Positions 47,837-62,597 of a stretch of DNA of 64,000 nucleotides are shown here, one piece after another. A model generated the notes under the pieces. The model saw nothing but the letters and a program-made list of their open reading frames with translations. It was not told where the DNA came from and made no database searches. The DNA is from Psychrobacillus sp. FSL H8-0483. GTDB lineage: Bacteria; Bacillota; Bacilli; Bacillales_A; Planococcaceae. How positions within the stretch are numbered: position 1 is the first letter of the stretch; each line of letters opens with the position of its first letter. The DNA lies in NCBI RefSeq assembly GCF_038637725.1, contig NZ_CP152052.1:1161501-1225500 (forward strand). Reading direction: 5' to 3'. The translations under genes and the position numbers were made by a program.

Positions 47837-48913
47837 ATGAAAAATCTATTTCGTATTTTAATTGCTGTTGCTATTGTACTAGTCATATTGATATATTTTG
47901 ATAACCCGGTTCAAGAGAATGAAATCATCACAGGGCCTAATAACTCTGGACAACTAATACCACAGAAAACACCGGATGTAGTAGAAGTCAATAATATTTT
48001 TTCGAAGCCTAAAAAAGGTATTTCTACTTTAATAGGCAAACCATCTCACGAATTAACTAGCTTGTTTGGTAAGCCAAATCGAATTGAACCATCCGCATAT
48101 GGGTACGATTGGTGGGTATATAATGATTCCTTTTCTTCATATAAGCTTTTTGGAGTAACAGGGGACATTGTAACACAAGCATTTTTGATCGGTAGTGATG
48201 TGGACGCTACTCCTTATAAGATTGGACAGTCGTTGGAAGAAATTTATCGTTTTACTATTGTGCAATCAGAAATAACAATGTCTATTGACGAAAACACATA
48301 TACTTTTTCGTTAAATGAACAAGATATTAACAACCGTATTTTAGTTCAATTCGATGACTTATTCGCGATGCTATATATTGATGAGAAAGATCAGCAGTTA
48401 GAGGCAGTTCGATTTACGGATGCTAAAACACTTCTCTTACATAAACCATATGACATTTTATATGAGGGAACAATTATTGAAACAAATGCACCTTCATCTT
48501 CATTGCAAGCTGAAATTGATAAAGCGAATGAAAGACAAATCGTAGAAATCACAAATGTATTTCGTTTTCGCCATGGTTTAAAAGTGTTAGAGTCTGATAA
48601 TACGTTACAAAAAATAGCTATTTCCCATAGTGAAGAAATGGCGAAAAATAATATCGTTACAAATGAGACATTCGAAGTTTCCAAATTTAGTGATATGTTA
48701 AAAGAATCGTCAATTGTTTTCGACCGTGCTGGAGGTAATACCGCGGCTTTTTATTTTGATGCGGGAGAGGCAGTAAATGGTTGGTTAAATTCTAAAGATC
48801 ATCGTGAGACTTTGTTAGGGAAATGGTATACCCATACAGGAGTAGGGGTATACGGTAATTACTACACACAAAATTTCATTGACCGACCTATGATAAAAGA
48901 AATTCAGGAATAA
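47837..48913 (+). CDS. YlbC-like CAP-domain secreted protein
   Basis: 358-residue protein with an N-terminal signal anchor (about residues 5-22). A CAP-associated N-terminal domain follows (about 55-190, with KPSHELTSLFGKPNRIEPSAYGYDW). The C-terminal CAP/SCP domain (about 235-350) has FRFRHGLKVLESDNTL, AISHSEEMAKNNIVTN and the DHRETLLGKWYTHTGVGVY end. Resembles YlbC of B. subtilis, found next to ylbF/ylbG. CAP domains bind or modify lipids and proteins; the role here is unknown. The stop is directly adjacent to the stop of the convergent aspartokinase-like gene, with no gap. Confidence 0.85.
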   Translation: MKNLFRILIAVAIVLVILIYFDNPVQENEIITGPNNSGQLIPQKTPDVVEVNNIFSKPKKGISTLIGKPSHELTSLFGKPNRIEPSAYGYDWWVYNDSFSSYKLFGVTGDIVTQAFLIGSDVDATPYKIGQSLEEIYRFTIVQSEITMSIDENTYTFSLNEQDINNRILVQFDDLFAMLYIDEKDQQLEAVRFTDAKTLLLHKPYDILYEGTIIETNAPSSSLQAEIDKANERQIVEITNVFRFRHGLKVLESDNTLQKIAISHSEEMAKNNIVTNETFEVSKFSDMLKESSIVFDRAGGNTAAFYFDAGEAVNGWLNSKDHRETLLGKWYTHTGVGVYGNYYTQNFIDRPMIKEIQE

Positions 48914-49645
48914 TTAATGAAATACAATTGTACCTTCTCTATCTTCATATAGGGATCGTATATGCAAAGGAACTTTGTGGAGGGCAGCAAATTTTGCTGC
49001 TCTTTTTTGTATTATTTCTACTGGTTCATTTATTTTATTTTGAAGTTCTTCATATGTCATAAAGGGTATTAACTCAACATTTTCATTTGTGAAAGGATCT
49101 GAAGTCATAACACCTGGTACATTTTTATAAAATTCAACAACTTTTGCGTTTAAGTAATGCCCATAAACGACAGCAGTTAAATCACTTCCACCTCTACCAA
49201 GAGTAGTAAAGGTTTGAGTCTTTTCTGAAACACCTTGAAATCCGGGTACTACGATACAATTAAAATTTTGGAATGCGGTTATGAAGCTACTTGTATTTAC
49301 TTTTTCTATCTGAGCATTTCCATAAGCTTCATTCGTAATAATACCTGCACTTTTTCCATATAAAATGGTTGCCAAAATTCCTTTACTCTTTAGTTCTGCA
49401 CATAAAACAGATGCAGAAATAAGTTCACCACATGCAGATAGTAAGTCTGTTTCAACGCCATTGGTCGAATTTGGAATAAGATCTAATAAGGTGTCTGTTG
49501 CGTAGTATTGCCCTCTTCTTCCCATGGCTGAAACAACAATTAATACTTTTTGATGAACACTAATTGCTTTTTGAATTCTTGCAATAACTAATTGTCTACT
49601 TGGTCGATCCTGCATTGCGATTCCGCCATACTTTTGCACAATCAT
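48914..49645 (-). CDS. Aspartokinase-like amino-acid kinase without ACT domains
   Basis: 243-residue amino-acid-kinase-fold protein, closest by eye to the catalytic half of DapG (aspartokinase I): VLIVVSAMGRRGQYYATDTLLDL, LLSACGELISASV, VPGFQGVSEK, TTLGRGGSDLTAVVYG and KNVPGVMTSDP. It stops at the end of the kinase domain (VPLHIRSL), so both regulatory ACT domains are absent. The canonical KFGGTS is KYGGIA, losing the Thr-Ser pair. It might therefore be an unregulated aspartokinase or have lost activity. It is divergent from a MurE-like ligase gene, with SigE-like -10 elements between, suggesting a joint role in diaminopimelate supply. Confidence 0.8.
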   Translation of the reverse strand: MIVQKYGGIAMQDRPSRQLVIARIQKAISVHQKVLIVVSAMGRRGQYYATDTLLDLIPNSTNGVETDLLSACGELISASVLCAELKSKGILATILYGKSAGIITNEAYGNAQIEKVNTSSFITAFQNFNCIVVPGFQGVSEKTQTFTTLGRGGSDLTAVVYGHYLNAKVVEFYKNVPGVMTSDPFTNENVELIPFMTYEELQNKINEPVEIIQKRAAKFAALHKVPLHIRSLYEDREGTIVFH

Positions 49646-49665
49646 AATTTATACCACTCTACTCG

Positions 49666-49694
49666 TGACATTTCAAACACTCCGTTCATACGAT
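49666..49694 (+). promoter_or_regulatory. SigE-like promoter candidate upstream of the MurE paralogue
   Basis: TGACATT (49666-49672), 14-bp spacer, CATACGAT (49687-49694). This matches the mother-cell SigE consensus (KMATATT - N14-15 - CATACANT) at 5 of 7 and 7 of 8 positions. Located about 60 bp before the predicted start. Confidence 0.4.
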
Positions 49695-49710
49695 ACAAGG
49701 AATTCAATTT

Positions 49711-49718
49711 ACTGTATG
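49711..49718 (-). promoter_or_regulatory. SigE-like -10 upstream of the aspartokinase-like gene
   Basis: Minus strand CATACAGT, a full match to the SigE -10 consensus CATACANT, about 65 bp upstream of the start. The -35 at the right distance is poor. Confidence 0.3.
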
Positions 49719-49753
49719 CGATTTTACAAGAATGGTGTAGGGAGTGAGCTACT

Positions 49754-51214
49754 ATTTATCGATTAAAAGAGCTTATGGATGGCTTAGATTATAAGATAAT
49801 TGGGGATTTAGATGTTTTAACGATAAACAGATTTATTGATCATTCAAAGCAAATAAAAAAAGGAGATGTATTTGTTTCCGAAACAAATAATCGTTCGTTT
49901 ATAGAAGAAGCAATTCAGCACGAAGCGATAGCGATCCTTACGTCATTTTTTATTCAAGACTGTATTGTTCCTCAGATTATCATACCAGCGGATATGTATC
50001 TTATGAAGGATAGAATCGCATATATGACATATGAATTGTATGGTAAACAAATAAAAACAGTTGGAATAACTGGAACAAATGGAAAAACTACGGTTGCTAC
50101 ATTTGTAGGACAATTACTAATGCAACAGAATAAATCGGTATGTGTTATTGGTACGCTAGGTGTATTTGTAAATGGTAAGAAAATAGAACAAAACTTTCGA
50201 AATAATACAACTTTACCGTTTTATGATTTTATTCAAGTAGTAAAATACTGTTCTGATCACCATGTAGAATTTATTGTATTAGAGGCCTCTTCTCAAGGTT
50301 TATTGGACAATCGATTAGGAAGTTATCCTATTGATATTGGAGTATTTTTAAATATAGGAAAAGACCATCTAGAGTTCCATGGGGGAATGGTTCCTTACAA
50401 AAAATCAAAGGAGTTACTTATTTCATTAGCAAAGCAGCTTGTTGTAAATGATAATGATGAGTGGTGTCGAACCGTAGCACAAAAAGCGTATTTACCAGTC
50501 ATTCGATTTGGAGAAAAACAGACAAATGACGTTATTTATTCAAAAGAAAATTATACGACGGAAATAGTGTCATATGAGCTAATAGTAAGAGGGAAAAAAT
50601 TACGAGTTAAGATGAGAAACAACGGTCATTACAATGGGATGAACTTAGCTGCAGCTGTAGCTACTTTGTTGGCTTTGGATTTTCCTTGTGAAGAAATACA
50701 GCCTGTAAAACTGCCTGCTGGGAGACTAGAACGTATTCCTAATAGCAGGGGAATAGAAGTGCTCATAGACTATGCGCATACCCCTGATGCACTAGAGGCC
50801 TGTTTATCTACAATTGTGTCTTATGCGAAAAAGAATGTTTATGTAGTGTTTGGATGTGGAGGCAATCGAGATAAGCAAAAAAGGAAATGGATGGGTGAGG
50901 TGGCAACAAGCTATGCAACAATAGCAATCGTAACATCTGACAATCCTAGAAACGAACATCCAGAAGATATCATCGCTGATATTGTGAAAGATTTAGATAG
51001 AAGGAAGGTACTTATTGAGACAGATCGTAGAGAAGCGATTAGGCTAGCTTTAAGCATCGGGAAAAACGGGGACGTTGTGTTAATTGCAGGAAAGGGACAT
51101 GAGCAAGAGCAAATAATGAATGGTCTTGTAGTCCCTTTTTCTGATCATCAGGTAGTTCTTAGTTATTTTGAAGAGCTAGGTGGTTCAATGACAAAAAATG
51201 ATCCTGTGGCATAA
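49754..51214 (+). CDS. MurE-like UDP-MurNAc-tripeptide ligase paralogue with meso-DAP signature
   Basis: Mur ligase of about 486 residues. ATP site VGITGTNGKTTVATF (about 106-120), LEASSQGL, NIGKDHLEFHG, LIDYAHTPDALEACL, then GCGGNRDKQKRKWM and the substrate-selecting motif TSDNPRNEHPEDII, where DNPR marks meso-diaminopimelate ligases (Lys ligases lack the Arg). All three Mur domains are present. The frame is open upstream of ATG 49775 to an ATT at 49754. GGAG lies 9 bp before this ATT, whereas ATG 49775 has no proper site, and (I/M)YRLKELMDGLDYKIIGD is the usual MurE N-terminus, so ATT is the likely start. It pairs with an aspartokinase-like gene. I infer a sporulation or cortex role. Confidence 0.85.
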   Translation: MYRLKELMDGLDYKIIGDLDVLTINRFIDHSKQIKKGDVFVSETNNRSFIEEAIQHEAIAILTSFFIQDCIVPQIIIPADMYLMKDRIAYMTYELYGKQIKTVGITGTNGKTTVATFVGQLLMQQNKSVCVIGTLGVFVNGKKIEQNFRNNTTLPFYDFIQVVKYCSDHHVEFIVLEASSQGLLDNRLGSYPIDIGVFLNIGKDHLEFHGGMVPYKKSKELLISLAKQLVVNDNDEWCRTVAQKAYLPVIRFGEKQTNDVIYSKENYTTEIVSYELIVRGKKLRVKMRNNGHYNGMNLAAAVATLLALDFPCEEIQPVKLPAGRLERIPNSRGIEVLIDYAHTPDALEACLSTIVSYAKKNVYVVFGCGGNRDKQKRKWMGEVATSYATIAIVTSDNPRNEHPEDIIADIVKDLDRRKVLIETDRREAIRLALSIGKNGDVVLIAGKGHEQEQIMNGLVVPFSDHQVVLSYFEELGGSMTKNDPVA

Positions 51215-51660
51215 GCAATTTTCTTTCCATCCGGCTGGGTTACAGTACATTCTAAAACTAATGTTTGACGTCCTTTATGTAAATATGAAGCTGTCGCAAT
51301 CAACGTTTTTTCTGTAGCAGCCTTAACGTAATGAATCGTCATATTTGTTGTAACAGCACCTTTTCCTTCCGGTTGAAGATCTTTGTTTACAAGGAATCCC
51401 ATTGCGTTATCTGTTAGCGTTGCAATGACTCCACCGTGAGGCATATGAAAGCTATTGTGGATAAGTGGGGTTACAGGTACCGTTACAACACAAATATCTT
51501 GTTCATATTGTGTATCCATATGAAAAATGGCATTTAAATAGGTGGGAGCAGCATTTTGTTGTTTATTTTGAATACCTTTCAGGAATTCTTTTAGTAAGCT
51601 CATTTCAACCTCTGATGCATTTTCAGTTACTTGAGTAAGCAGTGTTTTTAATTCATTCAT
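51163..51660 (-). CDS. PaaI-type hotdog thioesterase
   Basis: 165-residue single hotdog-fold protein. PLIHNSFHMPHGGVIATLTDNAMGFL carries the HGG-x(n)-D/N arrangement of PaaI-like acyl-CoA thioesterases, followed by TTNMTIHYVKAATEKTLIA and GRQTLVLECTVTQPDGKKIAYATGSFFV. Substrate unknown. Start chosen at 51660 after GGAG; the frame's earlier start at 51696 lies before it. The last 17 codons overlap the 3' end of the convergent MurE-like gene by 52 bp. Confidence 0.85.
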   Translation of the reverse strand: MNELKTLLTQVTENASEVEMSLLKEFLKGIQNKQQNAAPTYLNAIFHMDTQYEQDICVVTVPVTPLIHNSFHMPHGGVIATLTDNAMGFLVNKDLQPEGKGAVTTNMTIHYVKAATEKTLIATASYLHKGRQTLVLECTVTQPDGKKIAYATGSFFVIEPPSSSK

Positions 51661-51743
51661 AATTTTTCTCCTAACAATAAGATAATAGTTTAGCATTTAT
51701 TTCTGCATTTCTGTTATGATAAACAGGATTGGAGGTTTCACTT

Positions 51744-52193
51744 ATGATAATGACTAATGAATGGGCCACGATAATGGACCAGTCAGATATGCTATGTACA
51801 ATGGTTCTTTCCTCTGAACAATTTTACCAATACTTAGAAGCACATTGTGCTATATATACAAATCCGAATTTAGTTCGTGAAATAAATCATTTCACGAAAC
51901 TGAAAGATCAATATGAAGAGGTTCAGCGATTCGGAAAATATCATCCAGATTATTCGACAGTAATGAAGGATATTCGAGTAACAAAACGAAAACTGGATAT
52001 GATAGATGAAATAGCAACCTTAAGAGTTGCTGAAAACGAATTACAAGACTTACTAGATGAAGTAAGTTTGTTAATAGGTAAATCTGTTTCAGAAGGTGTT
52101 AAAGTACCTGTAAGCAATCCATTTTTTGCATCTAGTAACTCTAGCTGTGGAAGCGGCTGTGGTTCGGGTGGTTCTTGTTCTTGCTCTGCTTAA
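51744..52193 (+). CDS. ylbF: YlbF/RicF family protein
   Basis: 149-residue member of the YlbF/YmcA family. Helical core SSEQFYQYLEAHCAIYTNP to DEIATLRVAENELQDLLDEV, and a Cys/Gly/Ser-rich tail CGSGCGSGGSCSCSA. In B. subtilis RicF forms a complex with RicA (YmcA) and RicT (YaaT) that carries iron-sulfur clusters, directs RNase Y processing and affects sporulation, competence and biofilm. The tail cysteines fit cluster binding. Start chosen at ATG 51744 following GGAGG. Confidence 0.88.
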   Translation: MIMTNEWATIMDQSDMLCTMVLSSEQFYQYLEAHCAIYTNPNLVREINHFTKLKDQYEEVQRFGKYHPDYSTVMKDIRVTKRKLDMIDEIATLRVAENELQDLLDEVSLLIGKSVSEGVKVPVSNPFFASSNSSCGSGCGSGGSCSCSA

Positions 52194-62168: not shown

Positions 62169-62597
62169 ATGAATGTTAAAATGAGAAAAGATAGTTGGAC
62201 TATAGAAGAAGACAATCTATTAAAAGAGCTAGTTTTGAAAAAGATTGAGCAAGGCCATACCCAAATTTCTGGTTTTCAGGAGGCAAGCATTTTATTAGGA
62301 CGCTCCAAACAAGCTTGTGCATTCCGCTGGAATAAAAATCTACGTTCTCAAATTTTCCGAAAAGAAGTATCTGCTTTTGAGGCAACATTAAAAGAAGATA
62401 CATCAAAAGATGATACAACAAAAGAATTGGTAGATTCTACTTCCCTTCAAAACCACTTGCAGTTAGCAATGCAAAGCTATGATGAAATGAGACAATCGTA
62501 CGATGAAATTTCTAATGCGTATAACTTATTGAAAAAAGATTACGAGGTATTAGTAAACTGGGCAAAGCAGGGCCTTACACACATTGAGCATAACTAA
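62169..62597 (+). CDS. RsfA-family sporulation transcription regulator (GerR/YlbO-like)
   Basis: 142-residue regulator. An N-terminal Myb/SANT-like DNA-binding domain (RKDSWTIEEDNLLKELVLKK, then GRSKQACAFRWNKNLR) and a C-terminal coiled coil (residues about 95-140, with repeated QSYDEMRQSYDEISNAYN). Matches the RsfA family; YlbO (GerR) of B. subtilis, which lies at the same place after rpmF, switches off SigE-dependent genes and activates others in the mother cell. AAAGGGTG precedes the start. Confidence 0.88.
   Translation: MNVKMRKDSWTIEEDNLLKELVLKKIEQGHTQISGFQEASILLGRSKQACAFRWNKNLRSQIFRKEVSAFEATLKEDTSKDDTTKELVDSTSLQNHLQLAMQSYDEMRQSYDEISNAYNLLKKDYEVLVNWAKQGLTHIEHN

Follow-up and report, generated by a model that had tools for sequence, protein, structure and literature searches.

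Why should a Psychrobacillus genome carry, back to back with a shortened aspartokinase-like gene, a MurE-type ligase with the motif of enzymes that add meso-diaminopimelate (DAP)? The region studied, hereafter the window, is a 64-kb stretch of a single 4.14-Mb contig (1161501-1225500). Of several possible explanations we favour, at a probability of roughly three in four, one in which this MurE would be the mother-cell DAP ligase for the spore cortex, with a DapG-like kinase, putatively free of feedback, feeding DAP and dipicolinate synthesis. A promoter of SigE/SigK type would switch MurE on, and the enzyme would add meso-DAP to UDP-MurNAc-Ala-Glu in the mother cell during sporulation. The spore cortex would then be built with DAP, and the growing cell would use another MurE, probably one adding L-ornithine in this Psychrobacillus. 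The divergent kinase, its regulatory half lost, would, free of feedback, drive flux from aspartate towards DAP and dipicolinate.

A separate DAP-adding activity was reportedly detected by biochemistry of the 1970s in sporulating Bacillus (now Lysinibacillus) sphaericus, and a title of 1974 announces a DAP peptidoglycan hydrolase in sporulating cells of the same species. We know of no gene that has been assigned to the DAP-adding activity.

The divergent gene pair and its intergenic region

The two genes diverge from a short intergenic region and are placed between a ylbC-type CAP gene and paaI-ylbF (Table 1). An earlier note, made from the sequence of the window, had described an ACT-less aspartokinase-like gene and a DNPR-bearing MurE back to back, in a context of ylbF, ylbJ and an RsfA regulator. 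Both genes and the context were found as described; YlbJ is divergent (88 bits with TIGR02871) and, like the RsfA-type regulator at 62169-62597 (69 bits with TIGR02894), scores under the cut-off of its model, with ytvI (306 bits with TIGR02872) above its own.

Table 1. Features of the kinase-MurE locus, in window positions
Feature	Position	Strand	Remarks
ylbC-type CAP protein gene	47837..48913	+	constant left neighbour of the locus
DapG-like aspartate kinase, catalytic domain alone (no ACT domains)	48914..49645	-	243 aa
MurE promoter-like element, SigE/SigK type	49665..49695	+	GTGACATTT (49665-49673), -10 CATACGATA (49687-49695)
Kinase promoter-like element, SigK type	49710..49737	-	CACC-N15-CATACAGTA; CATACAGTA at 49718-49710
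MurE ribosome-binding site AGGGAG, 5' of ATT	49739..49744	+	AGGGAG in 18/19, AGGAAG in 1/19 Psychrobacillus
MurE, spore type	49754..51214	+	486 codons from the probable ATT start; DNPR and GKGHE
MurE, ATG-based frame	49775-51214	+	479 aa
PaaI-type thioesterase gene	51163..51696	-	right neighbour in several genera
ylbF	51729..52193	+	constant right neighbour of the locus; PF06133

The window MurE passes TIGR01085 with 380 bits (cut-off 257), and its closest named protein, 97% identical, is from Psychrobacillus. TGTNGKTT, K212 and NTT or TT, which we take to be the P-loop, the carbamylated-lysine site and the UDP-MurNAc contacts, are invariant or nearly so across the MurE alignments. Both C-terminal elements looked for in a meso-DAP-adding MurE are present, DNPR at residues 389-392 and a G-x-x-x-E motif, GKGHE, at 439-443 (ATG-based numbering). 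The NCBIfam name 'DAP ligase' was rejected as substrate evidence, because model NF001126, with which the window MurE scores 395 bits (cut-off 373), accepts vegetative enzymes with DDPR (525 and 534 bits) just as it does the spore type.

The start of MurE is probably to be corrected from ATG 49775 to ATT 49754. In the window and 18 relatives, the ribosome-binding site is followed 9-10 nt on by an ATT at the same alignment position; the frame from this ATT encodes residues of the type I[YF]x[LI][KNE] with many silent changes, and the ATG is unconserved among the 19 Psychrobacillus, a combination that points to the ATT as the likely start. Gene callers would place the start at ATG 49775 or elsewhere; the ATT is kept in 19/19 Psychrobacillus.

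These 19 genomes share a strongly conserved intergenic block with -10-like elements on both strands, as judged against what we take to be the SigE and SigK consensus sequences. The -10-like elements to which the earlier note had drawn attention are real, and CATAnnnTA on both strands is rare, being present in 18 of 5000 random stretches of 129 nt. All 19 Psychrobacillus carry a strict SigK-type pair of -35 and -10 on the strand of the kinase, compared with 8 of those 5000 stretches for a given strand; strict SigK-type matches number one per strand in the whole window. On the MurE strand CATACGATA (17 genomes) or CATAAAATA (2 genomes) stands behind GTGACATTT, with no strict SigK -35 found on this strand in the 19 genomes. 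Of 29 spore-type loci, 27 (18/18 in Psychrobacillus, 9/11 in others) have CATAnnnTA no more than 220 nt upstream, vs 356 of 5000 random stretches; within 150 nt upstream it is found in 11 of 14 genomes from 13 genera vs none of 13 vegetative or ornithine-type MurEs.

The kinase consists of an amino-acid-kinase domain (PF00696, 111 bits), and a domain search found no ACT domain in it. Its best NCBIfam model is the aspartate kinase NF006068, which we take to be DapG; the match of 252.6 bits (cut-off 474) spans the catalytic half of this 405-position model, from 3 to 245, and the protein ends there, short of the ACT regulatory domains and of a full-length score. The catalytic residues K5, S39, T50, E74 and R151-D155 are retained, in relatives as well, and the predicted fold (mean pLDDT 92) is closest to aspartate kinases, with a TM score of 0.90 to 5yei. 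The kinase and its relatives read GG[IVMW]A; the other aspartate kinases analysed here read GGTS.

In B. subtilis the operon order is spoVFA-spoVFB-asd-dapG-dapA, and DapG is aspartate kinase I, the enzyme inhibited by meso-DAP. The corresponding run in three genomes of the family (G000, G197 and G066) is DpaA-like, DpaB-like, asd, dapA, with no dapG between asd and dapA. The simplest reading of the sequences is that the kinase is a relocated DapG which has lost its regulatory half. It would resemble DapG in its catalytic half and differ from it in lacking the regulatory one and in its position.

Co-occurrence with sigF and decay at the site

The distribution of the pair was analysed in 200 genomes of the family from 19 genera. 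With the SigF model, 151 genomes gave matches at E 2.2e-80 or better and the other 49 at 1.1e-55 to 1.5e-49; the curated cut-off is passed by 27 of the 151. The spore-type MurE is present in 151/151 sigF-positive genomes, 149 by score (6.9e-72 or better) and two, G002 and G020, by reading the locus, where both carry MurE and kinase at the same site. By score it is found in 0/49 sigF-less genomes, where the best match (2.3e-64) is at the level of other MurEs. The gap in score is narrow at its weak end, lying between 6.9e-72 in a sigF-positive genome (G100) and 2.3e-64 in a sigF-negative one (G058). Both sigF and the spore-type MurE are largely fixed by genus, and because the sigF-less set is made up of six genera in their entirety, as far as sampled, plus three Chryseomicrobium, the contrast is mostly one between genera.

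A contrast within a genus is provided only by Chryseomicrobium. In the sigF-positive G020 both genes are readable, though divergent. In the three sigF-less genomes MurE is reduced to its last 112-115 residues' worth (G001, G038 and G054; in two frames in G038), with kinase remnants of 25, 115 and 115 residues, respectively, so that the loss of sigF and the loss of the pair go together within the genus. Two further sigF-less sites, in G070 and G008, retain ylbC and ylbF with no MurE between them, which brings the sigF-less sites read to five of the 49. For the 151 sigF-positive genomes, the DNA of 44 loci was read, a set in which twelve spore-forming genera are represented by one genome each and which also includes G020; MurE lies beside ylbC in every one, and ylbF follows wherever the stretch is long enough. 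The spore-type MurE is present together with the sporulation machinery and lost together with it, remnants persisting in three genomes.

The kinase is less constant. Short kinase frames of 237-318 aa occur in 73 of the 200 genomes, all of them sigF-positive, and in six spore-forming genera MurE has no kinase at the site. A short kinase-like frame in G028 was rejected, as it is LysC split over two frames.

Two other spore markers proved unsuitable: DpaA (TIGR02853) gave 0/200 matches above cut-off, with weak partial matches only, and SpoIIIAA (TIGR02858) likewise 0/200, spore formers included. Loss of SpoIIIAA and SpoIIIA genes in the family is described (PMC7924749), and PMC3533761 counts SpoIIIAA as absent from L. 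sphaericus C3-41 but regards that genome as unreliable. In this family, where both of these markers fail, the spore-type MurE serves as a marker of the capacity to sporulate.

Substrate motifs and a candidate MurE of the growing cell

Among 27 distinct spore-type MurEs the motif reads DNPR in 23, DNAR in 2, DNCR in 1 and DSPR in 1; DNAR or DNCR occurs in three genera and DSPR in one genome. The Arg is retained in 27/27 and the Asn in 26/27. Twelve vegetative MurEs from other genera, L196 and L197 among them, belong to the same ligase family and share its reaction type, but read DDPR in 12/12 and are encoded elsewhere in the genome. In the alignments DDPR is also the motif of the lysine ligase 4bub; a second lysine ligase, 4c12, has DNPA and the DAP ligase 1e8c has DNPR. 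Among solved structures 4c12 is the closest to the vegetative L196 of G063 (486 bits, the next 307). A maximum-likelihood tree of 45 MurEs separates a spore clade (98/95), with the G020 protein on a long branch, from a vegetative clade (100/99), an ornithine-type clade (100/100) and a fourth group (100/100).

What, then, serves the growing Psychrobacillus cell? Its genome encodes nine Mur-ligase middle domains, and a search of that genome with the window MurE returned one further match of MurE grade, a protein of 517 aa (4022822-4024375, minus strand), and two weak ones. The 517-aa protein is likewise a MurE by TIGR01085 (291 bits, cut-off 257); unlike the window MurE it has neither DNPR nor GKGHE, reads IDDHFAN for DYAHTP and falls into the separate 100/100 clade. 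A MurE of the lysine type (DDPR) was sought in this genome, and none was found. The earlier note had proposed reading the motif of the murE in the dcw cluster as a check that could refute its claim. The cluster, read by eye, runs from spoVD directly to mraY and murD with no murE; the only other MurE lacks DNPR, an outcome in favour of that claim.

Orthologues of the 517-aa MurE were found in 19/19 Psychrobacillus, 4/4 Chryseomicrobium and 1/177 of the other genomes in the family sample. Relatives at about 65% occur in Halobacillus, and at about 60% in Thalassobacillus, Neobacillus, Caldicellulosiruptor and Tissierellia-type taxa. A 58% relative in a genome of another genus (G183, contig C280, L235) may reflect either transfer or contamination, since that assembly is in about 640 contigs. 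The walls of Halobacillus and Chryseomicrobium presumably contain ornithine. For Psychrobacillus species, including Bacillus psychrotolerans, ornithine walls have been reported, as far as can be told from a title cited in PMC11376405. Together with the distribution over Psychrobacillus, Chryseomicrobium and Halobacillus, these reports suggest that the 517-aa MurE may add L-ornithine during growth; its relatives at about 60% in other taxa count against this. It is not the sole candidate in Chryseomicrobium, because a further MurE-like protein is present there. The earlier note had proposed a switch from Lys to DAP; for Psychrobacillus the lysine gives way to the reported ornithine, and the switch is probably one from Orn to DAP.

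Competing explanations and the Bacillus sphaericus activity

The proposal of the earlier note that this MurE paralogue is the sporulation DAP ligase finds its core supported by the 151/151 vs 0/49 distribution, by the decay at the site and by the Arg in 27/27 spore-type enzymes vs DDPR in 12/12 vegetative ones. Its placing of the kinase in the DAP branch fared less evenly: the catalytic domain without ACT domains agrees with it, and the absence of the kinase beside MurE in six spore-forming genera does not. Because of that absence the ligase can be regarded as independent of the kinase, and the role of the latter is less sure. It is conceivable, though in our view doubtful, that MurE is the spore enzyme and the kinase stands outside the DAP branch, either serving dipicolinate alone or being a poorly active relic that shares the intergenic region. 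The six genera would fit this, as would the change from GGTS to GG[IVMW]A and the unreached cut-offs of full-length aspartate kinase models; the retained catalytic residues, the confident aspartate-kinase fold, the conserved SigK-type element and the decay of the kinase along with MurE all argue against it.

That MurE is linked to sporulation but adds something other than meso-DAP, such as lysine or another diamino acid, we consider improbable. Specificity is not fixed by sequence alone, and the DNAR, DNCR and DSPR variants leave some room for such a substrate, but the invariant Arg and the near-invariant Asn align the spore type with 1e8c and set it apart from 4bub and 4c12. Least credible of all is a vegetative role for the window MurE, with another job for the 517-aa protein. 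No other protein encoded by this genome, indeed, carries the standard C-terminal MurE motifs; against this stand the ornithine reported for Psychrobacillus species, the promoter-like element of mother-cell type, and the sigF-less Chryseomicrobium, in which the 517-aa type is kept and the window-type gene survives as remnants alone. We thus return to a mother-cell DAP ligase as the preferred reading, accompanied in some genera by a kinase putatively freed of its brake; it would account for the gene arrangement, the distribution and the decay alike. Its extension to the whole family is, on balance, slightly favoured: each spore former's genome would hold two stem-peptide chemistries, that of a vegetative MurE, adding Orn in Psychrobacillus and Lys in the majority of genera, and that of a mother-cell DAP-MurE at a fixed locus, joined in half of the genera by a relocated DapG minus its DAP-sensing half, and this self-contained, feedback-free cortex branch would be discarded once sporulation is lost.

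The parallel with B. sphaericus lies in a separate DAP-adding step at sporulation, within the same family and in cells whose growth phase uses a different diamino acid, the activity here being predicted from genes. The differences are that here a gene, its fixed locus, promoter-like elements and a paired kinase are to hand, and that the amino acid of growth is probably Orn, not Lys. The locus therefore offers, family-wide, a concrete gene for the old activity; a search of the open-licence literature, which mostly excludes older and subscription journals, found no published account of this gene. The locus also shows how one cell could alter its wall chemistry in a single compartment, and deletion of one gene would make possible a direct test of effects on cortex, dipicolinate and spore resistance.

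Further Mur-ligase-like genes were observed in the family. One MurE-like group (L202, L204, L207, L211 and L233) reads DDLN or DDRN; several genera have it, as do some Psychrobacillus, but it is absent from the genome studied here. Two other stretches (L011, 3506-12425, and L018, 5394-6779), read by eye, encode a 723-aa Mur-ligase-domain protein and two shorter Mur-ligase-like proteins with ATP-grasp-like neighbours, and similar sets are present in G147 and G063.
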